A DNA stretch of 64,000 bases from Atribacter laminatus (GCF_015775515.1 NZ_CP065383.1:1860001-1924000); one strand, 5' to 3'. Numbered from the stretch's first letter, positions 12,751 through 41,900 are shown. Notes: a model not told the origin generated them from the letters alone. A program made the numbers and translations.

Positions 12751-12768
12751 TTAATCAATATGATTCAT

Positions 12769-13785: not shown

Positions 13786-13851
13786 AATCTTACCTCCTCA
13801 AGGGTTTTTATATTTTAATAGCATAAGCTATTAAAACCAATGAAAATACGG

Positions 13852-14820: not shown

Positions 14821-15507
14821 AGTTCTCCCCTAGGTACATTAGATTTTTTATTTCATCAGATTATCTAAACTATGGTACAACAAAAAAATGGCATGATTAT
14901 TAGACTTTAGTCCATTCTTTTGCGGAGCAACCAAGGAGCCCCGAATCGATATGGTAAAATGTTTGAGATTCAAAACATAATTCTGAGTAAGTCAATTAAT
15001 TTTCATTGAAAATCTGGTTATTTTTTGATGTTTTATAGTGAGATGATCGTAAGATTGAAGAAGGGGACGAAAAAAGAGCACACCTATATATCGGGATAAA
15101 ACTGAAGAAATTATGAATAGAGAAAACAGAAGCTTATTAGGAAAAACGAAGTTAAATAGAAAAATAGGACTTAAAAAAAATGAAACTAACCATTTTTTAG
15201 AAAGAGTATCAGGAAAATGATAACTCATCGTTGTTCTTTCAATGGTTTTGCTTCCCTTCAAGTAATTCACAAGAGATTCTTGCCCCCCTCAGAAGACCAT
15301 TAATCAAACAACTTTTTAAAAAACTTTATATTACAATTTATAGATGAAGTAAGAAAGCTTTCTTTATTATAATTCCCGGAGTTAAAAAGTCAATCAGATA
15401 ATGATGATTATTGTCCCGACTATCTTGCTATAGCTTCTAATTCACATTATTCTTGATAGAATATCTTAAACATTTTATTATTTTGAAATTTCTTAGAGGA
15501 TGGAAAA
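14821..15507. promoter_or_regulatory. Divergent control region between Rbs-type importer and sugar-kinase operon
   Basis: On the plus strand TTGATA (15453-15458), a 17-base spacer and TATTAT (15476-15481) make a good sigma-70-type promoter about 25 bases before the kinase start. AGAGGATGG is the ribosome site. The minus-strand promoter of the importer is not obvious. The middle of the region is AT-rich; a 92-codon minus-strand frame with a GTG start and poor ribosome site is not convincing. Confidence 0.55.
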
Positions 15508-17046: not shown

Positions 17047-17092
17047 TTATAAATCATAAAAATCATAATTTAGAAAAGAGGCATTATTTTAA

Positions 17093-17770
17093 ATGAAAAT
17101 TCATCCGAAAGAATTGGTTAAAATGATTGATGTCAGTATGTTGCAGTCGGTGAATACTGAAACCGATATTCAATATTTAATTGAAAAGACTAAGAAATAC
17201 CAATTTATTTGTGCTTTTGCTTTACCTTGTTACTCTCAAACTTTGGTGGAAGCTTTTAAAGATGAAGATATAATGGTTGGAGCACCAATAGGCTTCCCAA
17301 CCGGAGCTGAGTTAACCAAAGTGAAGGTATTCCAAGCAAAAACTCTTTATGATATTGGATGTGACGAGTTTGACATGGTTATGAATGTCGGATGGCTTAA
17401 ATCAAAACAGTTCGGAAAAGTAGCAAAGGATATTCAAGCCGTTTATCAAACAATAGTGGAAAAACCATTGAAAGTCATTGTCGAAGCTATGTATCTTACT
17501 GATGATGAGCTAACTGATGCCTGTAAAATTGTTATGAACAGTGGAGCTGAATTTATAAAAACCGGGACTGGTTGGGCATCGAAACCAACAGAAATTCGAC
17601 ACGTTGAAATAATGGCTAAAGCTATTCAAGGAAGAATAAAAATGAAAGCCGCTGGTGGTATTAGAGACTACGAAACTCTTTGTAAAATGCATGATATGGG
17701 TGTTTCACGATTTGGAGTAAGTTTGAGTTCGGGAATCAAGATTGTTGAAGAAGCGAATTCAGAGCAGTAA
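17093..17770 (+). CDS. deoC: DeoC-type aldolase (deoxyribose-phosphate aldolase family)
   Basis: 225 residues, the usual length of bacterial DeoC. It is a TIM barrel with the Schiff-base lysine in FIKTGTGWAS, a second active-site lysine in KMKAAGGIRD and the conserved acidic stretch DEFDMVMNVGWLKS. The enzyme class I reaction cleaves 2-deoxyribose-5-phosphate to glyceraldehyde-3-phosphate and acetaldehyde. Placement between a kinase and a hexulose-phosphate isomerase suggests either 2-deoxysugar breakdown or a related retro-aldol step on another sugar phosphate. ATG 17093 is preceded by AAAAGAGG. Family assignment is firm; the substrate is not. Confidence 0.88.
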   Translation: MKIHPKELVKMIDVSMLQSVNTETDIQYLIEKTKKYQFICAFALPCYSQTLVEAFKDEDIMVGAPIGFPTGAELTKVKVFQAKTLYDIGCDEFDMVMNVGWLKSKQFGKVAKDIQAVYQTIVEKPLKVIVEAMYLTDDELTDACKIVMNSGAEFIKTGTGWASKPTEIRHVEIMAKAIQGRIKMKAAGGIRDYETLCKMHDMGVSRFGVSLSSGIKIVEEANSEQ

Positions 17771-17889
17771 TAATTTTATTTAAAAAAAATCCGGATGATT
17801 CTCTCTATTTATTAATAAACCGCGAACTCTTTTGAAATTTATTGCTTTTCCTTAATTTATAGTTACCACTATTAAAAGGGGTGAAAAAG

Positions 17890-18447
17890 ATGATAATTCG
17901 AGAATTAGCTGCAACTGTTGTGAATGAGTTGAAACAGGTTTTTGAGAGATTAAATGAGGATGAAGTGGAAAAATTTACTCAAGCAATTGTTGATGCCAAA
18001 CGGGTATTTTTGGTTGGTGGAGGGAGAGAAGGATTATCTTTAAGAGCTTTTGCTATGAGGTTAACCCATCTTGGCAAAATTGCTCACTGGATTTGGGATG
18101 ATACAACACCGGCTATAGGTGAAAGAGATTTATTGGTTGCCACTTCTGGAGGCGGAAATGTTCCCCATATTCATCATATTGTTGTGGAATCAAAGAAAGC
18201 AGGAGCCAAAATTGCCATTGTAACTGGTAATCCCAGTCGAGAAACCCCCAAGCTGGCAGATCTTATTCTCATGGTTCCGGCTTCGGTTTATCGAGGAGGA
18301 CTTAACACTGTTCCTTCCATTCAACCCATGGGATGTCTCTTTGAGCAGTCTCTTTATATAGTCTTTGATTTGATAGTCCTCATCCTTGCTGATAAGATGA
18401 AAGTTAGCCGAGAAGAAATGGAAAAACGTCATCGAAATGTTGAATAA
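17890..18447 (+). CDS. hxlB: 6-phospho-3-hexuloisomerase-like SIS-domain protein
   Basis: 185 residues from ATG 17890, which has GGGGTG 7 bases upstream; a GTG at 17881 is in frame but sits on the ribosome site. It is a single SIS (sugar isomerase) domain: RVFLVGGGREGLSLRAFAMRL, LLVATSGGGNVPH, AIVTGNPSRETPKLADLIL, then the family-specific end IQPMGCLFEQSLYIVFD. Known members interconvert D-arabino-3-hexulose-6-phosphate and fructose-6-phosphate. No hexulose-phosphate synthase is nearby, so here it may act in a sugar-breakdown route with the kinase and aldolase just upstream instead of in formaldehyde fixation. Confidence 0.82.
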   Translation: MIIRELAATVVNELKQVFERLNEDEVEKFTQAIVDAKRVFLVGGGREGLSLRAFAMRLTHLGKIAHWIWDDTTPAIGERDLLVATSGGGNVPHIHHIVVESKKAGAKIAIVTGNPSRETPKLADLILMVPASVYRGGLNTVPSIQPMGCLFEQSLYIVFDLIVLILADKMKVSREEMEKRHRNVE

Positions 18448-22141: not shown

Positions 22142-22161
22142 AGAAAAGTACTTTTTCTTTA
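22139..22161. terminator. Short bidirectional hairpin made by two convergent stop codons
   Basis: TAAAGAAAA (22139-22147) and TTTTCTTTA (22153-22161) form a 9-bp stem with a 5-nt loop. The left arm begins with the stop codon of treT and the right arm ends with the stop codon of the minus-strand neighbour. The stem is A/T-rich and so weak, but gives a U-rich 3' side in both directions. Confidence 0.45.
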
Positions 22162-23385
22162 ATCGTTTATTCGAATGAGTAGTGGTAGAGTTTTGGTGAC
22201 GGTGGCTTGGAAGGCTCCTAAGAGCCAAATATCGTTTTCAACTTGTAGAAATTGAACTGGGCTTTCGTCATTTAAAGTTCCCAGGCATTTATTTTCCAAA
22301 ATATTACCATCTCGGTCCAGTTGAATGACCCAGATATCCCAACCGCCTTGGTTATTAAGGATGTCTCCATCTTTTGATTCGGTCATTCCTGCTATCCAAA
22401 TGGTTTCTTGTTCATCATATAAAACAGTTATTCCAATATCCCGATATTGGCCTCCCAGTCGCCGTAACCATTTTATATTTCCATCAATATGGTATTTTAA
22501 AATGATCAGATCACTCTTCCCTTTTGGAAGTCCCCAGTCGTTATTATCTGAGTCAGTTGTTCCAATTATTAAAAAATGATCATCATCAATTTTTTCGATA
22601 TCATTTACTAGATCTGAGCCTGAACCATTCATGATGGTTTTTTCGTTGATCACTCGGCCGAAATTATTAAGCCCAACCATCTGTATATTCCATCTCTCAC
22701 CAGGAAACCAGGTGTTATAGACCACGTAGAAAAGCTGGCCAATTTTTATCATTTGTCCCATAACATTATCTTGTTGATTACCAATTTCCGTGGTCCAAAT
22801 ATTCTCTCCGTTGAAACCAAGACAATCTAATCTTATCTGCCAATCATTCCTTGTCTTTAGTCCTTGCGATAGAGTAGTATGGGTTCCGCTTAGGAGAAGG
22901 ATTTCTTTAGCCTGCTGATTGATTAGTAGACTATTATTAAAAGTCAAATCAATGTTTTTCAAAGTGGCAATGTTTAGAATTTCGCGGTCAAAATTGGTTG
23001 AGAGAGTTACAACTTGGGTATCGGGCAAGGGATTTTTTTCATCATTCATAGAGGGTGTGGATACGAAGATCAGCTTTCCCGGGTTCCAGTAAGCTGCTTT
23101 TGAAATGAGCCCAATGGTAGACTGATCAATCACTTTCTCTTCAATAAGCTCTCCATCCTTTGAAAAAAACCAAAAATGATTAAACCTTTTACCAATCTCA
23201 TCTTCGGCAATCCCAATGAGGATAATTTTTTGCTCGGTTTCATCCCAAACTAAATTTACAGGAGTGATGCTGGGAAAGGATTGAGAAGATTGAATTGATA
23301 AGTATTTAGCAAAAGATAATGATGAAAATAAAAAAGGAATTAGAAAGCCTGTCAATACCATTCTAAAAAGTTTTCTTGGAAACAT
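22159..23385 (-). CDS. Secreted beta-propeller-like protein of unknown function
   Basis: 408 residues with a signal peptide (FRMVLTGFLIPFLFSSLSFA). The rest is a run of short beta-repeats in which a Trp/Asp-rich strand ends each blade, for example NNDWGLPKGKSDLIILKYHIDG followed by NIKWLRRLGG, and GGWDIWVIQLDRDGNIL. These resemble the WD-like repeats of secreted SBBP/delta-60 propellers. No catalytic residues are recognisable. It stands alone, convergent with treT with overlapping terminator arms. GGAGGAAGG precedes the ATG at 23385. A binding or surface role is possible; no function is assigned. Confidence 0.7.
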   Translation of the reverse strand: MFPRKLFRMVLTGFLIPFLFSSLSFAKYLSIQSSQSFPSITPVNLVWDETEQKIILIGIAEDEIGKRFNHFWFFSKDGELIEEKVIDQSTIGLISKAAYWNPGKLIFVSTPSMNDEKNPLPDTQVVTLSTNFDREILNIATLKNIDLTFNNSLLINQQAKEILLLSGTHTTLSQGLKTRNDWQIRLDCLGFNGENIWTTEIGNQQDNVMGQMIKIGQLFYVVYNTWFPGERWNIQMVGLNNFGRVINEKTIMNGSGSDLVNDIEKIDDDHFLIIGTTDSDNNDWGLPKGKSDLIILKYHIDGNIKWLRRLGGQYRDIGITVLYDEQETIWIAGMTESKDGDILNNQGGWDIWVIQLDRDGNILENKCLGTLNDESPVQFLQVENDIWLLGAFQATVTKTLPLLIRIND

Positions 23386-23471
23386 GAGACCTTCCTCCTG
23401 ATAATTTATAACTAAGAATTTAATTCAATTTTGAGATGATAATAGCATATATGTAAAAAGTTAATTTTTTC

Positions 23472-23550
23472 TTGACAAATCAATTCATTCCTATATACTC
23501 TAAAGGTACACTGTATACTGTATACAAAGAATTATAATACAGGATACAGT
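23472..23550 (+). promoter_or_regulatory. Strong promoter with a GntR-type operator
   Basis: TTGACA (23472-23477), a 16-base spacer and TATACT (23494-23499) form a near-consensus promoter. Just downstream, over the expected transcription start, ACTGTATACTGTATAC (23510-23525) is mirrored by AATACAGGATACAGT (23536-23550): a 15-base inverted repeat with two mismatches, each arm made of two TGTAT-type half-sites. GntR-family repressors of the FCD group often bind TGTATACA-like sites, and such a regulator is encoded in this operon (28230). Confidence 0.7.
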
Positions 23551-23576
23551 AAAAAAACCAGTAAGGGGGGTTCGTA

Positions 23577-24587
23577 GTGAAATTAAAAGTTTTGTTCATG
23601 ATATGTGTTTTAGTCTTTAGTTTGGTATTTGCTTCAACACTTCCAGTTTTTTCCCAAGAAAAAGAGCAGTATTACTGGATAGCCAGTGTTTCAACCCTTC
23701 CGCTTTTTTTAACCCATGATTATCCAGCGTTAAAGGAAGAAGCCGACCGGGTAGGTGCTGAGATTCATTTCATGGGACCGCAAAACATTGATATTGAAAT
23801 GCAAAACAATGTCCTCCAGCAAGTCATGGCTAAAAATCCAGATGGAATACTTTTTATGCCTTTTGGAGAAGGTCACAATACCGTTATTGACCAGGTTTTA
23901 GCTCAGGGAGTGCCTCTGGTTTGCATTGACGGTGATGCACCAAATACCAACAGAATTTGTTATTCCGGAACCGACTGGGAAGAATTGGGAAGATTTCAGG
24001 CAAGACTCATGGCTGAACTCATTGGAGAAAAAGGGAAAGTAATGTTGAGTGCCGTTATTCCAAACGATAATACCTTAAAAGCACGGAACGGTATTGAGAA
24101 AGAAATGGAGAAATATCCAAACATTGAAATTGTTGGTCTCCAAAACGACCAAGGTTCAGTTATCGAAGCGGCCAGGCTCACTGCCGAAGCCATTCAAGCT
24201 AACCCAGAAATTAATGGATTCATTGGCATCAATGCCTCGAGTGGTCCGGGTATTGCCCGAGCTATTGAGGAAGCAGGAAAAGTTGGAGAAATCAAAGTGG
24301 TTTGCGTTGACAATACACCTGACATTATTGAAGCAGTTAAAAAGCAAACCATCCAAGCTGCCGTAGTTCAAAAGCGGGAAGCCTTCGAAATTTGGGGATT
24401 CCGAGTTCTTTATGAATACAATCACCCCAGCACACCAATCTTGCAGAAATATAAAGATATGGGTTTCCCCATGGTGCCGAAATTGATTATGACCGGTGTT
24501 TTGGTTATGACTCCCGATAATGTCGATCAAATGATTGATGTTTTGGATTACCAAGAACAAGTCTATAAGGATATGGGATTAATGTAA
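23577..24587 (+). CDS. Sugar ABC transporter substrate-binding protein, RbsB type
   Basis: 336 residues from GTG 23577 behind AAGGGGGG. The signal peptide is MKLKVLFMICVLVFSLVFAS, cleaved near VFSQ. The mature protein is a periplasmic-binding-protein-4 fold: YYWIASVSTLPLFLTHDYPAL, PDGILFMPFGEGHNTVIDQVL, CIDGDAPNTNRICYSGTDWEELG and VVCVDNTPDIIEAVKKQ. It is the first gene of the large catabolic locus. A perfect hairpin separates it from an acetamidase-like gene, which lies between it and its ATPase. The ligand is unknown; the unusual neighbour suggests it might be an amide or a hydroxyacid/sugar derivative. Confidence 0.9.
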   Translation: MKLKVLFMICVLVFSLVFASTLPVFSQEKEQYYWIASVSTLPLFLTHDYPALKEEADRVGAEIHFMGPQNIDIEMQNNVLQQVMAKNPDGILFMPFGEGHNTVIDQVLAQGVPLVCIDGDAPNTNRICYSGTDWEELGRFQARLMAELIGEKGKVMLSAVIPNDNTLKARNGIEKEMEKYPNIEIVGLQNDQGSVIEAARLTAEAIQANPEINGFIGINASSGPGIARAIEEAGKVGEIKVVCVDNTPDIIEAVKKQTIQAAVVQKREAFEIWGFRVLYEYNHPSTPILQKYKDMGFPMVPKLIMTGVLVMTPDNVDQMIDVLDYQEQVYKDMGLM

Positions 24588-24591
24588 GAGG

Positions 24592-24630
24592 AAACAAAAG
24601 GGGCGAAACCTCTTTACGCCCCTTTTGTTT
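24592..24630 (+). other. Stem-loop after the binding-protein gene (attenuating terminator or mRNA stabiliser)
   Basis: AAACAAAAGGGGCG (24592-24605) and its exact complement (24617-24630) form a 14-bp stem with an 11-nt loop, five bases after the stop codon. The 3' arm ends in TTTTGTTTTAATT, so partial intrinsic termination is plausible, giving more binding protein than downstream products. Confidence 0.75.
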
Positions 24631-24664
24631 TAATTATTAAAATTTGAGGAGGGAAAACAGGAGA

Positions 24665-25564
24665 ATGTTCCACGTTATTCCAAAGTCTTACCGAACCTTT
24701 CGTTTTTCATCACATTTTCAGCCAACTATAATTGTTTCACCGGGAGATTATCTTCTTTTTCATACTCAAGATGCTCATAATGGAACCATTGACATATCTC
24801 AACCATGGACTGATGTGCCTTTTCCTGAGCTTGATCAAGATAGTGGGAATCCGGTGACGGGGTTAGTTTCAGTTAAAAATGCGTTGATTGGAAAATTGCT
24901 TCGGGTAAAAATTTTACAAATCATTCCTGATCCGGTTGGGATATTGCCGGTGAGGTCATATATGGGAATAATGCGCAATGTGGTTTCAGACCGTTTAGCA
25001 CGAACTGTAAAATACCAAGATAAAAAGATATGGATTTCTCAGGAATTAGCACTTCCCGCTCGACCAATGGTTGGAACCATTGGCATTGCGCCAGAAAAGG
25101 GTGAGATTCCGACTATTACAGCTGGTTCCCATGGTGGAAACATGGATGATAACTTGGTTGATGAACATGCTGAGGTTTTCTTTCCCATCCAACAGCAAGG
25201 GGCATTGCTCGGTTTAGGAGATGTACATGCTGCCATGGGAGAAGGTGAGCTCACTGGTGGAGGGGTCGATATTTCTGCCCAAGTATTAGTTCAAGTTGAT
25301 GTTGTTGATTCTTTCTTTCCATCAAAAAACCCGGTTATCATAAGAAAAGGGATGGTTAGTACTCATGGGTTTGGTAAGGACTATTCAGAAGCGGCTAAGA
25401 TAGCCTCAGAAGAAATGGCCCAACTTTTAATATACCAATTAAAATTATCCAAATATGAGGCAGTCCTCCTTATGGCAGCTCGGGGTGATTTAGGGCTTTG
25501 CCAGGCTTGCTTGTCCGATTCGTCAGCTACCGGAGTGAGAATGACTTTCCCAATCCTATGGTAA
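24665..25564 (+). CDS. Acetamidase/formamidase family hydrolase
   Basis: 299 residues from ATG 24665; a TTG at 24644 is in frame but lies on the GAGGAGGG ribosome site. The FmdA/AmdA fold is clear: FHTQDAHNGTI near the start, the conserved AGSHGGNMDDN stretch at about 160-170, then LGLGDVHAAMGEGELTGGGVDISA. Known members hydrolyse formamide, acetamide and other short amides to the acid and ammonia. It lies between the binding protein and the ATPase of one importer, which ties its substrate to that transporter. The true substrate could be another small amide or a cyclic compound. Confidence 0.9.
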   Translation: MFHVIPKSYRTFRFSSHFQPTIIVSPGDYLLFHTQDAHNGTIDISQPWTDVPFPELDQDSGNPVTGLVSVKNALIGKLLRVKILQIIPDPVGILPVRSYMGIMRNVVSDRLARTVKYQDKKIWISQELALPARPMVGTIGIAPEKGEIPTITAGSHGGNMDDNLVDEHAEVFFPIQQQGALLGLGDVHAAMGEGELTGGGVDISAQVLVQVDVVDSFFPSKNPVIIRKGMVSTHGFGKDYSEAAKIASEEMAQLLIYQLKLSKYEAVLLMAARGDLGLCQACLSDSSATGVRMTFPILW

Positions 25565-25578
25565 GAGGAGGTTTATCT

Positions 25579-27090
25579 TTGAAAGAAGCCATTTTAGAGA
25601 TGAAGAGTATTACCAAGGCTTTTCCTGGCGTTATTGCTCTTGATTCAGTGAATTTTTCTGTATTTCCTGGGGAAATTCATGCTTTAGTTGGTAAGAATGG
25701 AGCCGGAAAAAGCACACTTATATCAATCATTTCCGGAGTATATGGTCCAGATAAGGGTGAATTATTTGTTGATGGATCGAAGGTTTCATATTCCCATTTG
25801 CATAATCTACCAATATCTACGGTATACCAGGAAAGTACTGTTTTTCCAAATCTATCAATTGCTGATAATGTTTTTGCCGGTGATGAACCTATCAATCATT
25901 TATCTTTAGTTTCAAATCAAACCAAAATTGGAGAAACTAAAAAGCTTTTAGAAATTTTCCAGTTGAATTTCGATCCTTTGACCTTGGTAACCCAACTCTC
26001 CCCAGCTGAAAAAAAATTAGTGGAAATTCTTCGAGCATTGCAAAAAAAGAGTCGAATTATGATTTTGGATGAACCAACTGCTGCGTTAACTTTGTCGGAA
26101 ACCAAAAAACTTTTTCAACTCCTTCATAATTTAAAAAAATCTGAAATTGGAATTATCTATATTTCTCACCGCTTGGAAGAAATATTCGAAGTAGCCGATA
26201 GGGTTACAGTTCTTCGAGATGGAGTTTGGCAAGGAACTGAATATATCAATCAAATTGACATGCCACGTTTAATTACGATGATGGTAGGAAAAAAGAAGGA
26301 ATTAATTGAGGAGGTAAAAAAAGACGAGGTAGAAGTTAGAACCAAGGGTGAAGTGCTTTGTGAAGTTAAAAATTTAACTCACTATTATCGAAAATTTAAA
26401 AATGTAAATTTTCAAGTTCGAAAAAACGAAATTTTAGGTTTAGCTGGTTTAATTGGAGCAGGAAAGACCGAATTGGCCAAAGCGATTTTTGGCCAAGAAA
26501 GATTGGAAACCGGGGAAATTGAACTTGAAGGGGAAAAGATTTCTATTCATAGCCCCTTAGATGCGATTCACTATGGAATTGTTTATATTACTGAAAACAG
26601 GAAAGAAGAAGGATTGTTTTTAGATACTTCAATTAAAAATAATATTGTTGCTCCGGATTTAACTACAGTAGCAAACAATCTGGGTTTTATAAGTGATCAT
26701 AAGATTAATCAAATATCCAATCAGGTCATTCAGCAATTTAATATTAAAGCTTATGACGCCGATCAAATTACCAATACCTTAAGTGGTGGAAATCAACAGA
26801 AAGTCCTCCTGGGGTTATGGCTTCATCTCAAACCAAAAGTATTGTTGGTAGATGAACCGACTGTAGGAATTGACGTTGAATCAAAAACTGAAATTTACAA
26901 ACTTCTCAGAAAAATAGCCGACTCTGGAGTGGCTGTTATCATGATATCTTCTGAAATTAAGGAGTTGCTGAATAACTCTGATCGAATCATCACCATGTAT
27001 AAAGGAACCATCATTGAAGAATTTATTGCTTCACAAGTGAGTGAAAAGGAACTTCTGGCATCGATTTCCGGGATTTCCAATCGAGAATAG
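25579..27090 (+). CDS. Sugar ABC transporter ATP-binding protein, RbsA type
   Basis: 503 residues from TTG 25579, which has GAGGAGG 7 bases upstream, just past the acetamidase stop. The frame is open to 25498, but that part overlaps the acetamidase. Domain 1 shows GKNGAGKST, LSPAEKKLVEILRAL and IMILDEPTAALT; domain 2 shows GLIGAGKTELAKAIFG, LSGGNQQKVLLGLWL and VLLVDEPTVGIDVE. It energises the permease encoded 29 bp downstream with the binding protein at 23577. Standard double-ATPase length. Confidence 0.92.
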   Translation: MKEAILEMKSITKAFPGVIALDSVNFSVFPGEIHALVGKNGAGKSTLISIISGVYGPDKGELFVDGSKVSYSHLHNLPISTVYQESTVFPNLSIADNVFAGDEPINHLSLVSNQTKIGETKKLLEIFQLNFDPLTLVTQLSPAEKKLVEILRALQKKSRIMILDEPTAALTLSETKKLFQLLHNLKKSEIGIIYISHRLEEIFEVADRVTVLRDGVWQGTEYINQIDMPRLITMMVGKKKELIEEVKKDEVEVRTKGEVLCEVKNLTHYYRKFKNVNFQVRKNEILGLAGLIGAGKTELAKAIFGQERLETGEIELEGEKISIHSPLDAIHYGIVYITENRKEEGLFLDTSIKNNIVAPDLTTVANNLGFISDHKINQISNQVIQQFNIKAYDADQITNTLSGGNQQKVLLGLWLHLKPKVLLVDEPTVGIDVESKTEIYKLLRKIADSGVAVIMISSEIKELLNNSDRIITMYKGTIIEEFIASQVSEKELLASISGISNRE

Positions 27091-27119
27091 AGAAGGTATC
27101 TTTTAAAAGGGGGTTTATT

Positions 27120-28196
27120 ATGTCCAATCGGATTAAGCAAGATGAAAATTCTCGTACTTCAAAAGAGAAAATGATACCAGAGCAGAAATCGTCGGGAACA
27201 AAGGGATCTTTCTCAATTCCTGAAGAATCGATTTTAACAAAACTTTTAACCCGACGAGAAATAATTCTCATCATCTGCATCGGAATTATAGTTATTTTTG
27301 TTCCATTCTTTAATAAGAACTTTTTAACCTTCTCAAATTTAAAGATATTGCTCCTTAGCAACTCAACGGTTGCAATTATGGCTCTTGGAATTGGTATGCT
27401 CCTTATAATGGGAGAAATTGATTTAAGTATTGGAGCCAATATGGCTTTGTCGGGAGTTTTGGCGGCTATTTTTATGCAAACCTATGGCTATAGTGTGCCA
27501 GTATCCATCGGAATTGCTTTGATTGCAACCCTTTTGGTAGGGTTAGTTAATGGACTTTTGGTTGTAAAGGTTGGTATTAATTTTCTGATTACAACCTTAG
27601 CTATCCAAGGCATTATTCGAGGAACCGTCATCATTTTGGCGGAAGGAGGAGTAGCTTTCCTTCCCCCGGCTTTTAATAAGATTGGCCAAAACACATTACT
27701 AGGATTTCAACTGCCGGTTTGGTTTATGTTTATACTAGTCTTATTTTTTGGTTTGATGGTTGCGAAACATCGATTTTTCCGTCAGCTCTATTTCATCGGT
27801 GGAAATATTAAGGCAGCTCGTTTGGTAGGAATATCCACTGACAAAACTCGGATGATTGTCTATCTTTTATCAAGCCTACTAGCTGGAATGGCGGGTATTC
27901 TCAATACTGCCCGTTTTGGTTCTGCTTTTCCTTCTGCAGGAACCGGTGCTGAGATGAGCTGTATTTCAGCAGCAGTGTTGGGAGGATGTAGTCTTTCCGG
28001 CGGACAAGGAAATATGTTCGGAGTATTTCTGGGTGTTATTTTTATTGGTCTTTTGTCCAATGTGTTAGTCATGTTGAATGTTTCAACCTATTGGCATCAG
28101 ATTATTAATGGCATGGTTCTTATTGCTGCCATAACCTTTGATATTGTGATGCAGAAGGTTAGAAAAGAAAAACAAAGGAAAATGTTATTACAATAA
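27120..28196 (+). CDS. Sugar ABC transporter permease, RbsC type
   Basis: 358 residues. A 45-residue hydrophilic N-terminal extension (MSNRIKQDENSRTSKEK...) precedes the usual eight to ten membrane spans. Motifs are MALGIGMLLIMGEIDLSIGA, GINFLITTLAIQGIIRG, YFIGGNIKAARLVGI and CISAAVLGGCSLSGGQG. It forms the membrane channel for the importer whose ATPase is directly upstream. AAAAGGGGG precedes the ATG. Substrate undetermined. Confidence 0.92.
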   Translation: MSNRIKQDENSRTSKEKMIPEQKSSGTKGSFSIPEESILTKLLTRREIILIICIGIIVIFVPFFNKNFLTFSNLKILLLSNSTVAIMALGIGMLLIMGEIDLSIGANMALSGVLAAIFMQTYGYSVPVSIGIALIATLLVGLVNGLLVVKVGINFLITTLAIQGIIRGTVIILAEGGVAFLPPAFNKIGQNTLLGFQLPVWFMFILVLFFGLMVAKHRFFRQLYFIGGNIKAARLVGISTDKTRMIVYLLSSLLAGMAGILNTARFGSAFPSAGTGAEMSCISAAVLGGCSLSGGQGNMFGVFLGVIFIGLLSNVLVMLNVSTYWHQIINGMVLIAAITFDIVMQKVRKEKQRKMLLQ

Positions 28197-28229
28197 AGTG
28201 TCGTCGAAAGTCGAAGGGAGACTTGTAAC

Positions 28230-28865
28230 TTGGCGCTTATAAAAAAAGACCTTTTTGAAGAAGCTTATACCATCATTAAAGAAATGATCATGGAGGGAAA
28301 TTTAAAACCGGGAGAAAGATTGGTTCAAGAGCAAATTGCCCGAAATTTGGGCATTAGCCGAACCCCAGTCATGCATGCATTAAGAATTCTTGAGACAGAA
28401 GGATTATTAACCGCAAACCCTCGAACCAAAGTGATGCAGGTTCGTGATCTCTCTCAGGAAGAATTGGTGACGATATTTGAAATACGATTATGTATTGAAC
28501 CTTTAGCAACACGATATGCCTGTCAAGTTATTACTGATGAAGCTGTTGAAGAATTAGAAAAGAATTTTACCGCAGCATTTAAAAACAAGAATGAAAAAGA
28601 ATATCGTCGTTTAGATAACAAATTACATACCTATATTTCAGAAATCTGTCCTAATCGCGACTTAAGAGACTTTACCATTCGATCCGGTTTAATTTCCAGA
28701 TTTCTCATCAAGGGACTTATTCGTCCACCCCGGGAAACCTATTATGAGCATCTCCAAGTATTGGAAGCATTTCGTAAAAAGCAACCACAAGAAGCCGAAA
28801 AAGCAATGAGAGAACATATCAAAATTACTTTAGCTTATATTCAAAGAAGCGGAAAAGAAGAATAG
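28230..28865 (+). CDS. GntR-family transcriptional regulator, FCD subfamily
   Basis: 211 residues from TTG 28230 behind GAAGGGAGAC. The N-terminal winged helix shows MEGNLKPGERLVQEQIARNL and GISRTPVMHALRILETEGLL. The C-terminal all-helical FCD ligand domain carries the metal-binding Asp and His pattern (RRLDNKLHTYIS, YEHLQVL, AMREHIK). Such proteins are usually repressors released by a small acid or sugar acid. Its position inside the importer/catabolic locus and the TGTATAC-type inverted repeat at 23510-23550 suggest it controls this operon. The ligand may be the imported compound or its hydroxyacid product. Confidence 0.92.
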   Translation: MALIKKDLFEEAYTIIKEMIMEGNLKPGERLVQEQIARNLGISRTPVMHALRILETEGLLTANPRTKVMQVRDLSQEELVTIFEIRLCIEPLATRYACQVITDEAVEELEKNFTAAFKNKNEKEYRRLDNKLHTYISEICPNRDLRDFTIRSGLISRFLIKGLIRPPRETYYEHLQVLEAFRKKQPQEAEKAMREHIKITLAYIQRSGKEE

Positions 28866-28909
28866 TCGGGAAGTTCTTTTCTGAACTGAATATTAGAGGG
28901 GGTTTAATC

Positions 28910-29872
28910 ATGACATTACAATTTGCAACTATTACAGGTTTTTTTGGACAACTCAAAGATCGTTTTAAATTTTACCATGAGACAAAAATTTTGGAAGAAA
29001 AGTTGAGCTTAATCAGCCAGGTGGAAGGAAATCAGGGAGTTGAACTGATCTATCCTTATGATTTTAAAGATAAATATCAGACTAAAACTCAGCTTGAAAA
29101 AAATAGATTAATTGGAGCAGCGGTTAATGTCGACATTAAAGGCGAGATGGTCTGGAATCAACGATCTCTTACTGCGCTCTCAGCAGAGACACGGAAGAAG
29201 GCTTTCGATTATATTGCTCAAGGAGCTGAAATGTCTCGTTTTTTGGGTGCAAATTTAGTCACTGTTTGTCCCCTTCAAGATGGTTATGACTATCACTTTG
29301 AAGTTAATTATGAAAGAAGTTGGCAGTATCTTATTGATGGATTAAAAGAAGTAGCCCAATCTTATCCCGATGTAAAAATAAGTATAGAGTATAAATTCCA
29401 AGAACCACTCTCCCATTATTTGGTGGGCACAGCTTTCAATGCTCTTTATGTTTGTCTCAAGGCTAATGTTCCTAACCTGGGCGTGACTCTCGATTTTGGA
29501 CATGCCTTGCAGGCGGGAGAAAATCCGGCTGAAACCATGACAATCTTAGCACGAGAAAATAAACTGTTTCATGTCCATATTAATGATAATGATGGGAAGT
29601 GGGACTGGGACCTCATATCCGGGAGTAGGAATTTAATGTCCTATCTTGAATTTCTTTACATAATGAAAAAAATTGATTATCGAGGATGGATTGCTTTAGA
29701 TGTCACTCCAAGACACCGTAATCCAATTGAAATATTTTCTACGAGCATTTATATCACCAAAAAATTAGCCAAGCTGGCTGAGAGGTTAGATGAATTTCCG
29801 CTCCAAGAATCGATGGAAAAGGATTCTCCCCAACTGATTATCAGAAAAATTTATGATGAACTTATTAAATGA
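28910..29872 (+). CDS. Sugar isomerase/epimerase-like TIM barrel (AP-endonuclease-2 superfamily)
   Basis: 320 residues with a xylose-isomerase-like TIM-barrel pattern. Likely metal ligands are the Glu in VKISIEYKFQEP, the Asp/His in GVTLDFGHALQAGE, the His pair in FHVHINDNDGKWDW, and the late Asp in WIALDVTPRHR. The family includes isomerases of rhamnose, erythrulose-type and other sugars. GAGGGGG precedes the ATG. It is followed closely by a second, different member of the superfamily, so the two may carry out successive isomerisation and epimerisation steps on the imported sugar. Specificity not determined. Confidence 0.8.
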   Translation: MTLQFATITGFFGQLKDRFKFYHETKILEEKLSLISQVEGNQGVELIYPYDFKDKYQTKTQLEKNRLIGAAVNVDIKGEMVWNQRSLTALSAETRKKAFDYIAQGAEMSRFLGANLVTVCPLQDGYDYHFEVNYERSWQYLIDGLKEVAQSYPDVKISIEYKFQEPLSHYLVGTAFNALYVCLKANVPNLGVTLDFGHALQAGENPAETMTILARENKLFHVHINDNDGKWDWDLISGSRNLMSYLEFLYIMKKIDYRGWIALDVTPRHRNPIEIFSTSIYITKKLAKLAERLDEFPLQESMEKDSPQLIIRKIYDELIK

Positions 29873-29883
29873 AAGGATATCTT

Positions 29884-30741
29884 ATGGACTGGCCAATAGT
29901 GGTTGGATTAGTGAATTATCAAGGATACGGTATTGATCAGGTTTTTAGAAATTTGTATGGTCTTGGTGCTGAGTATGTTGAAGTTGATTATATTAAAACA
30001 CCCTTGGGAGTTGTCAATGAGTATGGCCTTACTCATTTAAACGAAAGCGATCTTCAAAAACCAAAGGATTTTTTTCAACTACTGAATCAGTATCAACTCA
30101 AAGCTCTCACCTTCAGTGGGCATGTAAAATTATCCATAGAAGAAGATGTGGAATTATTTCTCAAAAAAATGGAATTTGCCAAGAAAATTGGAGTGAAATA
30201 CATTACCACTGGAGAAGGTCCAGCTGAAAAAAGACAAGAAATTTTTAAGCATATCCGGTGGATTGAAAAGAAAGCGCGAGAACTGGATTTATTGGTTTGT
30301 CTTGAAACCGAAATGTCCAATACCTTGATTACTCGAGGTACTGAAGGGATTCCGATTATTAATGAAATAGCCTCACCCTATATTAAAATGACTTATGACA
30401 CTGGGAATATTTACTACGCTCAGAAAGGAAATATTGATATAATCGAAGATTTAAGGAGTGCTATTGATTACATCGAGGTCATTCATTTTAAAGATCCATA
30501 TATTATTGATGGAACAATCCAGTTTGGTGAGATAGGAAAAGGAGAAATCAACTTTTTCGAGTTGGCAAAAATAATGAAGGCAAAGGGTCGGATAATACCG
30601 ATCACTATTGAAATTCCCTATTTTTTCCAAAGTAATCAATGGGGTCCATTTGAAGTATCAGAAAAAATTCTTCCGATTGAGGATGTTAATCGTTTATTAA
30701 GCAAGTCAATAGGTTTTATTCAGGATCTATTTAAGGAGTAA
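29884..30741 (+). CDS. Sugar phosphate isomerase/epimerase-like TIM barrel (second member)
   Basis: 285 residues from ATG 29884, which has AAAGGA about 6 bases upstream; an ATG at 29869 overlapping the previous stop is also in frame. The TIM barrel shows VEVDYIKTPLG, TFSGHVKLSIEED, LLVCLETEMSNTL, KMTYDTGNIYYA and IEVIHFKDPYIIDG, with acidic and His residues at the usual metal-binding strands, and a closing GRIIPITIEIP. It resembles hydroxypyruvate isomerase, IolE and tagatose-epimerase relatives. Five bases separate it from the cupin gene. Its partner is the TIM barrel directly upstream. Confidence 0.8.
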   Translation: MDWPIVVGLVNYQGYGIDQVFRNLYGLGAEYVEVDYIKTPLGVVNEYGLTHLNESDLQKPKDFFQLLNQYQLKALTFSGHVKLSIEEDVELFLKKMEFAKKIGVKYITTGEGPAEKRQEIFKHIRWIEKKARELDLLVCLETEMSNTLITRGTEGIPIINEIASPYIKMTYDTGNIYYAQKGNIDIIEDLRSAIDYIEVIHFKDPYIIDGTIQFGEIGKGEINFFELAKIMKAKGRIIPITIEIPYFFQSNQWGPFEVSEKILPIEDVNRLLSKSIGFIQDLFKE

Positions 30742-30746
30742 CCGAT

Positions 30747-31148
30747 ATGAAAATCAAAAAAAGCCATGAACTGAATGGAATACAAGTTTCTAAACCCTTT
30801 AGCAGAGAAGTCCGAGTGATATTTTCACCAGATGTTGATGAAGGGTGTGGATGTAATCTCATTCGAGCGACCATTTATCCTTTCAGCAAAACTGATTATC
30901 GTCCGAGGGATCGAGTTGAAATTGTCTTTATTGTATCGGGGAAGGGGATATTTGTTTGTAACGATAAGAAATATCCCATCGAGAGTGAAACAGCACTCTA
31001 CATCGAAAAGGGCGATAAGATACAGATAATCAATACCGAAAGCCAAAATCTCAATCTGATTTCTTTCTATACCAACCCCTATAATTCCTATGACCTTTAT
31101 CAAAAACTTCTTAGTGCTGCTGAAAGAGCTCAAAGAGAAGTTGATTAA
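30747..31148 (+). CDS. Small cupin-fold protein
   Basis: 133 residues forming one double-stranded beta-helix. Cupin motif 1 is weak (RDRVEIVFIVSGKGIFVCNDKKY) and motif 2 is SETALYIEKGDKIQIINTE. The usual HxH metal ligands are not obvious, so it may bind a sugar or act as an isomerase/mutarotase without the standard metal site. It follows the two TIM-barrel genes with AAGGAG overlapping the upstream stop, so it is part of that operon. Function inferred only as an accessory sugar-processing or binding step. Confidence 0.65.
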   Translation: MKIKKSHELNGIQVSKPFSREVRVIFSPDVDEGCGCNLIRATIYPFSKTDYRPRDRVEIVFIVSGKGIFVCNDKKYPIESETALYIEKGDKIQIINTESQNLNLISFYTNPYNSYDLYQKLLSAAERAQREVD

Positions 31149-31228
31149 ATAAAACGTCTAGCGGCAGCTTCTTTATAAGTTCTACTTTAAGATGCCTCAT
31201 TGAAAATTGAGTGTTCACTCTTTTTTTA

Positions 31229-31258
31229 TTGCCAAGAAAAAACAGATGTTCCTATAAT
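31229..31258 (+). promoter_or_regulatory. Probable internal promoter before etfB
   Basis: TTGCCA (31229-31234), an 18-base spacer and a perfect TATAAT (31253-31258) lie about 100 bases before etfB, in a 212-bp gap after the cupin gene. The ETF/dehydrogenase genes could therefore be expressed separately from the upstream catabolic genes. Confidence 0.5.
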
Positions 31259-31360
31259 TTGTATAATTGCTATTCGTGGTGCAAAAAGATAACATTAAAT
31301 AAAAAAGAATTGGTTCTTTTATATATAGATTGACATTGAAAATCGAAGAGGTTTTTATCT

Positions 31361-32152
31361 ATGGAAATAATTGTATTGATAAAGCAAGTACCAGAAATTG
31401 GAGAGGCAAAGATTGATCCGAAGACTGGAACCTTGAATCGGAAAGGGATATCACTTACCATTAATCCAATTGATTTGAATGCCATTGAATTGGCTCTTCA
31501 GATAAAAGAAGAGCAAGGTGGCAAGATACGAGCAATAACTATGGGACCAGAATCAGCCGAGAAAGCTTTACGAGAAGCGTTAGCTCTAGGATGCGATGAG
31601 GCTTTTCTTCTCACCGGTCAGGAATTTGCAGCCTCCGACACTTATGCGACTGCTTATGCCTTAGCTCAATTAGTTACTTTTTTAAAACCTTGGGAAGTTA
31701 TCATTACCGGAGAAAAAGCCATTGATGGTGATACTGGCCAGGTTGGCCCGGCTGTAGCATCGTTTTTAAATATTCCCATTCTCACCTATGCCATTCAGTG
31801 TCAATTGGTTAATCGCTCTCTTTTTTTAATCGAAAGAACCATTGAATCCGGAGTTCAAAGAATCACGTTACCTCCTCCTTTTTTGATTACCGTTACCAAA
31901 GGGATGAATGCCCCACGATTTCCCACACTGAGAGGAAAAATATTCGCCCGGCAACAAGAAATTCAAAAATTCAATGCTCAGTCTCTGGGCATTTCTGTTG
32001 ATTCGATAGGGTTATCAGGTTCACCCACCCGAGTTGTGAAAGTTGAAAACTTTAAAATTGAACGAAAGGGAAAGATTTTAAAAGATATGGATCCAGTGCT
32101 TATGGCAGATCAATTGGTTCAGTTTTTAGTTGAACGAGGAGCTTGTAAATGA
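31361..32152 (+). CDS. etfB: Electron transfer flavoprotein beta subunit
   Basis: 263 residues with the EtfB/FixA pattern: IIVLIKQVPEIGEAKIDP, NPIDLNAIELALQIKE, ITMGPESAEKALREALALGCDEA, and the nucleotide-binding ITGEKAIDGDTGQVGP. It carries AMP or, in bifurcating types, FAD, and passes electrons from a dehydrogenase to an acceptor. It overlaps etfA by 4 bp, and etfA overlaps a GlcD-type dehydrogenase by 4 bp. The gene order etfB-etfA-dehydrogenase equals that of the lactate dehydrogenase/EtfAB complex of Acetobacterium (lctBCD). Whether this one confurcates electrons cannot be told by eye. Confidence 0.93.
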   Translation: MEIIVLIKQVPEIGEAKIDPKTGTLNRKGISLTINPIDLNAIELALQIKEEQGGKIRAITMGPESAEKALREALALGCDEAFLLTGQEFAASDTYATAYALAQLVTFLKPWEVIITGEKAIDGDTGQVGPAVASFLNIPILTYAIQCQLVNRSLFLIERTIESGVQRITLPPPFLITVTKGMNAPRFPTLRGKIFARQQEIQKFNAQSLGISVDSIGLSGSPTRVVKVENFKIERKGKILKDMDPVLMADQLVQFLVERGACK

Positions 32153-33135
32153 ATCACCATTTGCTGATAATAGGTGAAATTCACCGAGGGAAAGTCGAAC
32201 CGACTACATTTGAAATATTGGGAGCGGCACAACAACTTCGCAATAAAGGCGTTGAAAAGGTTGGCGTTTTTTTTGGATCTGGAAAGATTAATATAGAAGA
32301 ATTACAAAAACCGCTTCAGTTTGGAGCAAATTATGTTTACGGGATTAAAAATCCTATATTCGATGAGTTAGCCTTTCACCAGTCAACTCAATTCATTATA
32401 AATGTGATTCAAAAATTTAAACCAACCATCATTCTGGCAGCAGCTACCACCCGGGGAACTACCCTCATGCCCTATCTAGCAGCCAAACTCCATACTGGCT
32501 TAACCGCCGATTGTACCGGTTTTGATATCGATTCCGAAGATGGATCACTATTGCAAATCCGACCGGCTATTGGTGGAAACATTATGGCAACTATAAAAAC
32601 CAGAACCTTTCCCCAAATGGCGACAGTTCGTCCCAATACTTTTAAACCAATTCAGAGTGAATATCCTGATTCAACTCTTGTGATTGAGGAAGATAGTACA
32701 ACCTACTCCAGTGGATTCATAAAAAATGAATTTATCGAGGAAGATCATAATCTTGATATTGCCAAAGCGAAAATCCTGTGTAGTGGTGGTCGGGGATTAA
32801 AAAATGCTACTAACTTTTCTCACCTTGAAGAATTAGCGCAATGTTTAAAAGGTTGCGTGGGTGGAAGTCGAGTGGCGGTAGAGCAAGGATGGACCTCTTT
32901 CCCCCATCAAGTAGGTTTGAGCGGGAAAACCGTATCACCTGAATTTTATCTTGCTTTTGGAATATCAGGAGCGATTCAGCATTTAGCTGGGATGCAAACC
33001 TCTCGTTATATCATCGCTATCAACCGGGACCCAGAAGCCCAAATCTTTCATCTTGCCGACTTTGGTATTGTTGGAGATGTATTGGAAATTCTCCCGCAAG
33101 TCATTCGAATATTAAAACAAAGGAAAAATAAATGA
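32149..33135 (+). CDS. etfA: Electron transfer flavoprotein alpha subunit
   Basis: 328 residues. The N-terminal domain starts directly with LLIIGEIHRGKVEPTTFEIL, so the ferredoxin-like N-terminal extension of some confurcating EtfA proteins is absent. The C-terminal FAD-binding part shows CSGGRGLKN, AVEQGWTSFPHQVGLSGKTV and the canonical GISGAIQHLAGMQTS and AINRDPEAQIFHLADFGIVGD. It forms a heterodimer with EtfB in the cytoplasm and should take electrons from the adjacent GlcD-type oxidase. Overlaps of 4 bp on both sides show tight coupling. Confidence 0.93.
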   Translation: MNHHLLIIGEIHRGKVEPTTFEILGAAQQLRNKGVEKVGVFFGSGKINIEELQKPLQFGANYVYGIKNPIFDELAFHQSTQFIINVIQKFKPTIILAAATTRGTTLMPYLAAKLHTGLTADCTGFDIDSEDGSLLQIRPAIGGNIMATIKTRTFPQMATVRPNTFKPIQSEYPDSTLVIEEDSTTYSSGFIKNEFIEEDHNLDIAKAKILCSGGRGLKNATNFSHLEELAQCLKGCVGGSRVAVEQGWTSFPHQVGLSGKTVSPEFYLAFGISGAIQHLAGMQTSRYIIAINRDPEAQIFHLADFGIVGDVLEILPQVIRILKQRKNK

Positions 33136-34547
33136 ATCAGTTTAAACCGATCGATGATCGGGATATTCAATATTTTAAGACTATTATTGGTGAACAATTC
33201 GTTTCTGGAGATCCAGAAGTCCTTAAAAACTACTCAAAGGATGAGACTCCTGATGAAACCCTGCGATTGTTGCCCGAAGTGGTTATAAAACCAAAAACAA
33301 CCGAAGAAATCCAACAAATAGCCCGGTATTGTTTTGAAAAAAATATAGCGATAACACCACGAGGAGCAGGCAGTGGACTTTCAGGGGGATCGATACCGGC
33401 TTATGGTGGTGCTGTCTTGTCTTTGGAAAGAATGAACCGGATTTTGGAAATCGATACTGAAAATTTGATGGTGGTTGTCGAACCAGGAGTTATAACCAAT
33501 GACATTAACCGTCAGTTAAAAAGCTACAGTCTTTTTTACGCCGGCTATCCAATGAGTCTGGAAACTTGTCAGATCGGAGGAAATGTTGCCGAAAATGCTG
33601 GAGGTGGAAAGGCGGTTAAGTATGGTGTTACCGGTAATTATGTTCGAGGAGTGGAGTTTGTCACTGCAACGGGAGAAATGGTTCATTTCGGGGGGAAAGT
33701 TTATAAAGATGTTTCCTCTTATGATATCGTTCATCTCATGGTAGGATCAGAAGGAACACTTGGAATCATAACCAAAATTTATCTCAAGATTATTCCCCTT
33801 CCCAAGGAAAGAATTGTTTTGCTGGCTCCCTTTGATGATGTAAACCAAGCTTTGCGACTGCCAGTGATTTTACTGAAAGAAATGAAGATATTGCCCACTT
33901 CCCTGGAATTCATGAACCATGAAAGCTTATGTTTTGCTTATAAATATTGTAACCGCTCCTATCCCTTTCCAGATGCAAAATCACATGTATTGATTGAGAT
34001 AGATGGAGATGATGAAGAGAGAGTATTTTCGCTATCGGAAAAAATAGGGAATCGCTTATTTGATGTGGGGGCGAAAGAAATCTATATGGCCGATAATTCG
34101 ATTTTAATCGAAGAAATATGGAAAATGCGACGGGCAGTACCGGAAGCCATTCATCTTGCCCTCCCAGTGGAAATGAACGAGGATATATCACTTCCGATTC
34201 AAGAAATTGGTAACATTCTCCTTGTTATTGATGATTTGAGCCAACACTATCATTTATTTTCCCCGGTATATGGACATATTGGAGATGGGAATTTACACGT
34301 TACTTTGGCACCAAAACAAATTGAACACTGGAAGAAAGATGAGCCAATTATTCGCAAAATGTTTTATGAAAAAGTAAAAGAATTGGGAGGAGTTTTGAGT
34401 GGGGAACATGGAATTGGATTAAAAAGAAGAAACTATCTCTCTCAATTTTATTCGCCGGAAGAAATAAGGTTGATGAGAAATATTAAAAAAGCTTTTGATC
34501 CAAAAGGAATTCTTAACCCCGGGAAAATCTTCCCTGACCAGGAATAG
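33132..34547 (+). CDS. FAD-linked 2-hydroxyacid dehydrogenase, GlcD/D-lactate dehydrogenase family
   Basis: 471 residues. The N-terminal FAD-binding-4 domain is clear (TPRGAGSGLSGGSIPAYGGAVLS, VEPGVITNDINRQL, CQIGGNVAENAGGGKAVKYG, MVGSEGTLGIITKIYLK). The C-terminal FAD-oxidase domain has the metal/substrate residues PVYGHIGDGNLHVT and LSGEHGIGLKRR. Family members oxidise D-lactate, glycolate or other 2-hydroxyacids to 2-oxoacids. It overlaps etfA by 4 bp, so electrons go to ETF. In this locus it could oxidise a hydroxyacid derived from the imported compound. Lactate is the default guess; the real substrate may differ. Confidence 0.9.
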   Translation: MNQFKPIDDRDIQYFKTIIGEQFVSGDPEVLKNYSKDETPDETLRLLPEVVIKPKTTEEIQQIARYCFEKNIAITPRGAGSGLSGGSIPAYGGAVLSLERMNRILEIDTENLMVVVEPGVITNDINRQLKSYSLFYAGYPMSLETCQIGGNVAENAGGGKAVKYGVTGNYVRGVEFVTATGEMVHFGGKVYKDVSSYDIVHLMVGSEGTLGIITKIYLKIIPLPKERIVLLAPFDDVNQALRLPVILLKEMKILPTSLEFMNHESLCFAYKYCNRSYPFPDAKSHVLIEIDGDDEERVFSLSEKIGNRLFDVGAKEIYMADNSILIEEIWKMRRAVPEAIHLALPVEMNEDISLPIQEIGNILLVIDDLSQHYHLFSPVYGHIGDGNLHVTLAPKQIEHWKKDEPIIRKMFYEKVKELGGVLSGEHGIGLKRRNYLSQFYSPEEIRLMRNIKKAFDPKGILNPGKIFPDQE

Positions 34548-38913: not shown

Positions 38914-41900
38914 TTAAGATGGCGGAACAAAAATATAAATATATTCTTTCTCAGGATCTTTATTATATTTTTTACAGTTTTTAATTGCATCATTTTGAGC
39001 TTTGGTACAAGCATCGATGGCTTTATCAAAAGGTACCGATTGGGGATCAATTTTTACCACAGCATAGGTCAAAAACTGACCAGGCGTGCTCGTTACTTTT
39101 TTGATATACGGTGATACTTCAATATCAAAAAGTTTTAAAGCGAAATGGACGATTTCTGATCCAATAATCCAGGACCCCATAATGAAACCCCCTAAAGGTT
39201 CAACAACGCTGATACCTGCATCGATAGCAGTTGCACAGGTGTTACGGGCGGCTTCTTTTTTGCTGAGTACATCGTCGGCTTGAGTGTAAAGGTAGAGATT
39301 ATATCCAGTTTCAATGGTACCAGTGACCATCCCAATTACATTGAGAGAACCGCTTACGCTTTTGATTGGAATCCCTTTTACCCAGAAGCTTTTTTCTGGC
39401 ATAACGAGATAAGAAGGTAAATACGCTCCAAGCCGGGTTTGAGCTGCGATTCCTGCTAATTTAAAAGCTTCACCAGATAATTCAAGACCTCCCTTAAAGA
39501 TATAAACACTGACTCCCACCCAATCATCCTGGGAAGAACAGGCATAAATTTGGCTTCCACTGCTAATAAGAATAGTCCCAACTTTCGCTCCAGAGATGAA
39601 AGCCTTGAATTGGAGAGAATGGTGCATTTGACTGAGGAGCGATGATTGATTGAGTTCGGTTTCCTGTACAATCTCGGTTTTTTCCTTAACCCGTATCAGA
39701 GTTTCTTGTTGGAGAGTTTGGGTTTGAGTTGTGGTTTCTTTGGCAAGAATGGTTCCCGAGGATGTTTTTTGAGTTAAAAGAGTTTGAAGAGATTCAGTAT
39801 TGGAAAAAGCCTCGTCTCCCGATTCAATCCAAGAGGTATCGACTTTGGTTTCGATGGGTTGAGCGCTGGCAATTTTTTGCCAAGAACTATAGATTTTTAT
39901 TCCAGCTGAAATCACGTTTTTCACTTTTTTGAGGTTTTCGAGGAGAGGATCTGCTGATATATCAGATTGAGGAGCAACGCCTCCAAATCCACTTTCAGAA
40001 AGCAGAAAAGAGGTTTCTTCTCCGGAGATACTTTTTCCTTCCGACCACCACTGTCCGGGTAAATTCCAGGGAAGGTTTTGGAAAAGAAGAGAAAGTTCAT
40101 ACTGGTTTGGAGCAACCAAACAAACAACATCGACCTCATCCAGTGAACTTCCCTGGATCAAATTTTTAAGTTGAGGTTCTAACCCTGCTCTTTTCCATTG
40201 GTTACGCATTCCGATAGAATTGATACATCGGATGGCATAATTCACTCCGTCTATGGTTTGAAAATAGTCATAACAACCATAAGGTGAAGGCCAGCTATTT
40301 GCCGATGATGAAAGAGATGTTATGAGCTGTTCCAAAATCTGATCATTGAGAGGATGATTTGGTCGAGGTAAAAGGCGGGGGATCCATTCCTGAGTTGGAC
40401 TGAGAGTCTCGACAATAACACCGGAAACTGTAATAGGAGAGTAAGGAGGATCTTGAATAATTGCCATAACTTGTTGATTATTGTCCAGAGTGATTGATTG
40501 AGTGGTCTTGGCTGGAAGCGGGAACGGTTCGAAAGTAATTTTGGAGCGAGATTTTTTAACCCAAAAAGGAGTGAGTTTTATAAACAATGAATTTCCAGGA
40601 GTTAATCGTTCACCTGGCAATTTGACTGAAGCATAGTAAAGGTGATTACCCTGAGGCTGAGCCAGGACCTGATCGGTATAGAGAACTGTATTCCAGGGAA
40701 GGATTGGTCCGGGTTTTAGAAGTGGACTCGATGAAGATACGGGGAGGTTTATCTGAATACTGTTTCCTGGAAATTGAATAACCTGATCGGAGTGGTAGAC
40801 TTCCACTAACCAGCCTAATTGGGCAAACCCATCTCCCGGAGAAGAGGGGAGTTTGGTTTGGTCAGCATCTTCTTTAATACGCCATTGAAAAGTAAGGGTT
40901 CGGTCAAGAAAATCATCGCTTCCTGGAACTTCGACCATCATATAGCCACGGTGAATACCGGTTTCGGTAAATGTAACCACATCTATGGGTTCAACGTTGT
41001 TGATCAAACCTACTCCGCCCGCAGTCTTAGAATGATAATAAAAATCAACATATTCTTGATTTTTTTTGATAGCGAATTCGTACATTCCTAAAAATTCATC
41101 CCTCCAATTTAATTGAAGATTGCCTCCCTCAAAGGAAGTGATAGCGAATGGTGGCACACTTGGTTCGGTTTTCCCTGATGAAGGAGGTCTAAGATGAGGT
41201 TGGGCATGATCGTCAAAAGGGAGTTGGGGAATTTCAATGTCGATTACATTATTCCAATCATCTTGAAGCTGGCTTTGAATTGAATCCCAAGATGGAGCAT
41301 CAAATTGGTTCTGGCTTTGTATAGAAAACTGCATATTTTGGGAAACAGGTAATATGGTAAAAATATTGAGTTCACCAGTTTGACCGGGAAACAACATTGA
41401 GTTAGCCAGCTCTTTATTGTGCTGAGCTGACGTGACTTCGCTTTCGATGATTCCTTCTCTTCCTAAATCGTGAAAAAGTTTGAATTTTTCGTCTGGGTCG
41501 TCATAGCAATAATAGGACCACCGGACTGTATGACTTCCCGGACCACCTATTCCGTAAAAGCAAAGCGGGAGAGCTTTCCCTAGCATGCTGGGATGGTAAA
41601 TTTTATGCCAGCATTCCTGATAGGTCGTTCGCGGTGCTAAATCCTTCCCATCGATGACCCCATCTCCATCGGAATCGGGATGGTTTAAAAAGGTGGAGCA
41701 ATAATCGTCGTTTTCGGCCAGTATTTCACGGATATCAGGCATCCAGTCTTGATCTTCATCTTTCATGACCAAAAGATTGAATTCAGCCTCCAAGAGGTTG
41801 CTTACTCCATGGTCGGCAATCACAATTTGGTCGCTGCGAGGGAGGGCACAGCGTACTGTTACTGATTGAGAGACAACATCAGGGCTTTGCCACAAAACGG

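Follow-up and report, generated by a model that had tools for sequence, protein, structure and literature searches.

The window analysed here, a stretch of 64,000 nucleotides from Atribacter laminatus (GCF_015775515.1, NZ_CP065383.1:1860001-1924000), carries between positions 23472 and 34547 a run of genes for an ABC importer, an amidase-like hydrolase, a regulator, two TIM barrels, a cupin and an Etf-linked dehydrogenase. All eleven genes listed in the initial annotation are present on the + strand, in the order and of the families claimed, and the left edge given there, 23472, coincides with the -35 box of a promoter that matches well. The features are:

23472-23499, + strand: sigma-70-like promoter TTGACA-16-TATACT of the SBP operon, 11/12 matches, directly before the conserved operator
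23506-23525, + strand: tandem operator GTACACT-GTATACT-GTATAC, predicted from motif conservation to be the site of the GntR protein encoded at 28230
23577-24587, + strand: SBP, an RbsB/CUT2-type sugar-binding protein (Peripla_BP_4, 165 bits)
24591-24631, + strand: strong hairpin in the spacer that separates SBP from FmdA (-23.5 kcal/mol, z -5.0, 0/200 shuffles as good)
24665-25564, + strand: FmdA, a divergent acetamidase/formamidase-family hydrolase (PF03069) with its active-site motifs kept
25579-27090, + strand: double ABC ATPase of the CUT2 importer, start codon judged from the RBS
27120-28196, + strand: CUT2 permease (PF02653, 128 bits)
28230-28865, + strand: GntR/FCD regulator, with GntR and FCD domains
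28910-29872, + strand: TIM1, a xylose-isomerase-like TIM barrel (AP_endonuc_2)
29869-30741, + strand: TIM2, an epimerase-like TIM barrel (AP_endonuc_2)
30747-31148, + strand: small cupin without the metal-binding His pair
31267-31295, + strand: promoter-like element TTGCTA-17-TAACAT of the etfB unit, of equal form and spacing in G001, G003 and G005
31361-34547, + strand: etfB-etfA-glcD, a separate Ldh-Etf (LctBCD-like) module outside the GntR operon
31361-32152, + strand: EtfB
32149-33135, + strand: EtfA
33132-34547, + strand: GlcD

The intergenic gaps from SBP to GlcD are, in order, 77, 14, 29, 33, 44, -4, 5, 212, -4 and -4 nt. As far as the cupin none exceeds 77 nt, and the locus is divided into two units at the single large gap, the 212 nt between cupin and EtfB. 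Two start codons differ from those expected: FmdA has an ATG at 24665 with a GGAGG RBS before it, so that the listed TTG at 24644 is not a likely start, and the ATPase probably begins at TTG 25579, 14 nt past the FmdA stop, rather than at 25498. Elsewhere in the window, the - strand at 38914-45903 encodes a 2329-aa secreted protein with PKD-like repeats, and an ortholog (90-96%) lies at the equivalent place in G003.

The promoter scan as a whole did not rise above chance, and the SBP promoter is singled out by its position directly before the operator, which starts seven bases past the -10 box. The operator motif, GTATWCWGTATWC, occurs at one place only in the organism's own 3.10 Mb genome (one contig), and a reversed control pattern gave 0 sites; this genome-wide search found no further members of the regulon. 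Five relatives (G006, G007, G017, G019 and G023) have the motif immediately upstream of their GntR ortholog. In these the cassette opens with GntR; here GntR is the fifth gene, and the motif lies before the first. The short gaps, together with an operator that sits at the promoter here and is conserved before GntR elsewhere, suggest that importer, FmdA, GntR, TIM1, TIM2 and cupin form one GntR-controlled operon. The regulator has both GntR and FCD domains and the operator is conserved at the operon promoter, as in autoregulated GntR/FCD operons, the binding itself being a prediction. There is thus good evidence, at the level of sequence, that eight of the eleven genes constitute one regulated uptake-and-conversion operon, and to this extent the initial annotation is supported; as one unit, its import-deamidate-isomerise-oxidise pathway is not. 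The operon would be a defined one-operon regulon with a testable predicted operator, serving an uncharacterised TIM1/TIM2 enzyme pair. Hairpins are common after binding-protein genes in such operons, and the one between SBP and FmdA is probably an attenuator or mRNA stabiliser. Additional sites of the motif in G007 lie either where contigs end or at a distance from any clear gene; one of its contigs (L169 479-1519) carries two overlapping sites beside a creatininase-like amidohydrolase gene.

The full set of genes is not conserved together in relatives across the phylum sample, an outcome that the initial annotation had itself named as grounds for giving up its pathway. A shorter core does persist as a block: GntR-TIM1-TIM2-cupin is present in 8 of the 50 genomes sampled, all of one order. 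Across the order TIM1 is 55-95% and TIM2 36-93% identical, GntR orthologs in seven relatives are 45-90% identical, and TIM2 reaches an E value of 1e-20 in 11 of 386 genomes, again all in the same order. In the literature searched, the cassette and its operator appear undescribed; every part belongs to a known family.

The importers that accompany this core vary. In G006, G007, G017, G019 and G023 the cassette continues into TctC, plus TctA (and TctB) where the contig allows. A TRAP importer follows the Tct genes in G007, and RpiB, DhaK and DhaL follow the cassette in G023. In G004 the C-terminal end of a permease ortholog lies directly before GntR (L091 1-222, 82% DNA identity to the window permease) and a CUT1 binding protein lies downstream of the cassette. 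The presence of Tct, TRAP, CUT1 or CUT2 importers beside a conserved cassette suggests that the core is stable and the importer exchanged. FmdA is absent beside the cassette in all five relatives with Tct-type importers, which suggests that the chemistry of the core needs no amidase. Tct and TRAP systems mostly carry carboxylates, and both TctCBA and TRAP importers at times carry non-carboxylates too. Since relatives feed the core by a Tct-type carboxylate importer, its substrate is most likely, by analogy, a sugar acid or similar carboxylate. Beyond the order, plasmids of Roseibium and Paracoccus encode a TIM1 homolog (36% and 33%, respectively) downstream of genes for a GntR protein and a TRAP importer; behind it comes a further TIM barrel, not orthologous to TIM2. 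The second TIM barrel and cupin of Roseibium were ruled out as orthologs of TIM2 and our cupin, and only the link between TIM1, GntR and importer is claimed there. In more distant members of the phylum, distant TIM1 homologs (37-39%) lie directly behind apparent split transketolase genes (L105 and L107).

The core enzymes conserve their probable active sites. TIM1 has E160, K162, D195, H198, H223 and D264 invariant in 10/10 sequences, and the invariant E146, D177, H206 and E248 of TIM2 correspond to the tetrad of sugar epimerases. The cupin has R52-x-R54-x-R56-x-E58, invariant in eight orthologs, where metal cupins have His; the HxH...E motif of the metal-dependent cupin isomerases is replaced, which makes a role as metal isomerase unlikely. 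None of the three proteins reaches the cut-off of an equivalog model. Against solved structures, a TIM2 profile gave weak matches only (best UlaE, 34 bits), and single-sequence structure models were too poor for a fold search (mean pLDDT 38 for TIM2 and 48 for the cupin). The best solved match of TIM1 is 3KTC, at 149 bits, which we take to be the Pectobacterium protein later named OiaC. This match raises the possibility that the core serves a D-apionate-type pathway for a branched sugar acid or tetrulose, in which TIM1 would act as an OiaC-like decarboxylase yielding erythrulose, to be processed by DhaK-DhaL and RpiB as encoded after the cassette in G023. A TIM2-like gene also precedes DhaK-DhaL in Rhizobium tropici. 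However, the equation of 3KTC with OiaC is tentative, most cassettes have no adjoining DhaK and RpiB, and DhaK is otherwise general in the order, so that we consider this assignment unlikely.

The importer has an RbsB-type binding protein, a fused double ATPase and a BPD_transp_2 permease in one operon, as expected of a CUT2 ABC importer. The best solved match of SBP is the sugar-binding protein 2qvc/2h3h of a thermophile (138 bits), and among its best matches in the phylum nothing is closer than about 30% identity. A second RbsB-type importer (ATPase, SBP and permease) is encoded on the - strand of the window at 11171-18447, divergent from an FGGY kinase, a DeoC-like aldolase and a SIS-domain isomerase, all families being assigned by eye from the translations. 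FmdA is a member of PF03069 (73.6 bits against a gathering cut-off of 27), aligns to the solved structure 3TKK with 170 bits, and keeps the GGNxD, GDxH and GxGE motifs that are invariant in 35 homologs, among which it forms a lone long branch. It scores 42.5 bits against the cut-off of 500 for the formamidase equivalog NF045496.

A search of the five further genomes of the genus gave no FmdA, although in G003 and G004 the contig stops short of the expected SBP-FmdA stretch. It is a local addition to the conserved cassette, with the proviso that its absence from G003 and G004 could be an assembly gap. A higher G+C content (42.6% against 34-41% for its neighbours) was considered as a sign of horizontal transfer, and that reading is weak. 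The initial annotation called an FmdA-type gene inside a sugar importer unusual. In itself it is not: G007 and G008 have FmdA together with CUT1 permeases or binding proteins, G027, G033 and G047 have it at the end of HAAT operons, and in Actinobacteria it accompanies Opp-type importers; FmdA genes are also found alone. In Thermotoga, the acetamidase TM0119 (2F4L) presumably lies near the TM0114 sugar importer. What does hold is the pairing: among the loci inspected there was no other case of FmdA with a CUT2 importer or with the GntR-TIM1-TIM2-cupin core. FmdA in this kind of position is recurrent; its combination with a CUT2 importer and the core is so far unique. Several loci of the same phylum (L157, L158, L159, L163, L164 and L166) have FmdA-family genes inside CUT1 or HAAT importer operons, and in L158 the gene separates binding protein from permeases, an arrangement close to that of the window.

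The match of SBP to a sugar-binding protein, and the occurrence of FmdA genes with many importer types and alone, would also suit an ordinary neutral sugar operon, with CUT2 importer, isomerase and epimerase, in which FmdA is a passenger that simply releases ammonia from a small amide such as formamide. We consider this fairly unlikely, as FmdA lies in mid-operon, 14 nt before the ATPase, scores far below true formamidases, and the same core is served in relatives by carboxylate-type importers. FmdA may nevertheless have formamide or some other substrate and be merely co-expressed. That the imported compound bears nitrogen, as first proposed, is inferred from FmdA only.

In the initial annotation EtfBA-GlcD was the last step of one pathway, in which an amide-bearing sugar derivative is imported, deamidated and isomerised and the hydroxyacid product oxidised. 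All genes are on one strand with small gaps, and no strong terminator was found between cupin and etfB. Yet EtfBA-GlcD occurs without the cassette in G001, G005 and G008, and GlcD has no match in the cassette-bearing G006, G017, G019 and G023. No operator site with fewer than four mismatches precedes etfB (the best has four), and a promoter-like element, TTGNNN-17-TAAYAT, is common to the window, G001, G003 and G005 despite differing upstream genes. In G001 a CUT1 importer takes the place of the cassette upstream of etfB. In the sister species G005, EtfBA-GlcD is kept at 89-92% identity, the upstream block is missing, and TreT is directly followed by etfB (L093 6759-7060). The 51 nt between them correspond to the last 17 codons at the cupin gene's 3' end: 40/51 are identical, stop codon included, and the alignment scores 29, where 500 shuffles gave no more than 16. 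Such a scar suggests that G005 most likely deleted the whole cassette block and kept EtfBA-GlcD. Within the genus, the region between OtsAB-TreT and etfB (22142-31360 in the window) is variable and holds CUT2-FmdA-cassette, a CUT1 importer or nothing.

The 212 nt gap, the promoter-like site, the lack of an operator, the independent presence and absence and the deletion scar indicate that EtfBA-GlcD is a separate module. The order cupin-etfB is kept within the genus, in the window, in G003 (with a shared leader after the cupin) and as the scar in G005; with no strong terminator between, some functional tie between cassette and second unit is conceivable. A single pathway through all eleven genes is nonetheless quite improbable; as first drawn, it fails at its last step, oxidation, and is unproven at its second, deamidation.

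We therefore tentatively prefer an explanation in two units, which we would put somewhat short of probable as a whole. In the first (23472-31148), GntR would bind the tandem GTATWC operator over the transcription start and, judging from that position, be released by a pathway intermediate. The CUT2 importer would take up a small polyhydroxylated compound, a neutral precursor, and FmdA would most likely hydrolyse this neutral form, an amide or a similar derivative, and so release the acid that is taken up as such by relatives, a mechanism suggested by the transporter exchange. TIM1 and TIM2, aided by the non-metal cupin, may then isomerise or epimerise, and possibly decarboxylate, the acid to a ketose, which would enter central (sugar-phosphate) metabolism through kinases coded elsewhere. 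The second unit (31361-34547) would be a separately transcribed Etf-coupled dehydrogenase for a D-2-hydroxyacid, probably lactate. A more specific proposal is that GntR-TIM1-TIM2-cupin is a modular cassette for a sugar acid, with importer and matching hydrolase swapped together between relatives: here CUT2 imports the neutral amide and a new FmdA-family enzyme frees the acid, and relatives import the acid by Tct. We regard this as possible, if doubtful. If FmdA does supply the acid, the locus would show how a joint swap of importer and hydrolase gives a catabolic core a new food, and a family known to act on formamide and acetamide would gain a sugar-amide activity.

Compared with known systems, the importer shares its Peripla_BP_4 binding protein, double ATPase and BPD_transp_2 permease with the CUT2 (ribose-type) ABC sugar importers, but has the FmdA gene between binding protein and ATPase and stays below every NCBIfam equivalog cut-off, matching no known substrate. 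FmdA has the family score and motifs of the acetamidases/formamidases (PF03069; solved structures 3TKK, 2F4L and 2II1), but is at most 35-39% identical to anything found and departs at near-invariant sites (L67 for Pro, D202 for Glu), with GEGE for GDGE. TIM1 and TIM2 are AP_endonuc_2 TIM barrels with metal ligands kept, like the 2-oxo-tetronate/hydroxypyruvate isomerases and IolO-type epimerases, whereas their equivalog scores are far below cut-off (45 versus at least 325). The second unit differs from the Ldh-EtfAB complex (LctBCD) of Acetobacterium woodii (PMC9232219) in having no adjoining lactate permease or racemase and in its EtfA, which at 328 aa aligns from LctC residue 82 and is without the N-terminal [4Fe-4S] ferredoxin domain; confurcation in A. 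woodii needs this domain, and a related complex works without one of its own (PMC9232219). The same etfB-etfA-glcD set is present in both, and the best solved match of GlcD is LctD of A. woodii, at 342 bits, with the next at 241. GlcD has the metal-binding His pair, Glu-His and Arg: among the metal-binding and catalytic positions reported for LctD (PMC9232219), the equivalents R328, E344, D346, H377, H384, E422 and H423 are kept and L332 and Y386 are changed. By these features, the second unit most resembles the confurcating lactate dehydrogenase LctBCD.
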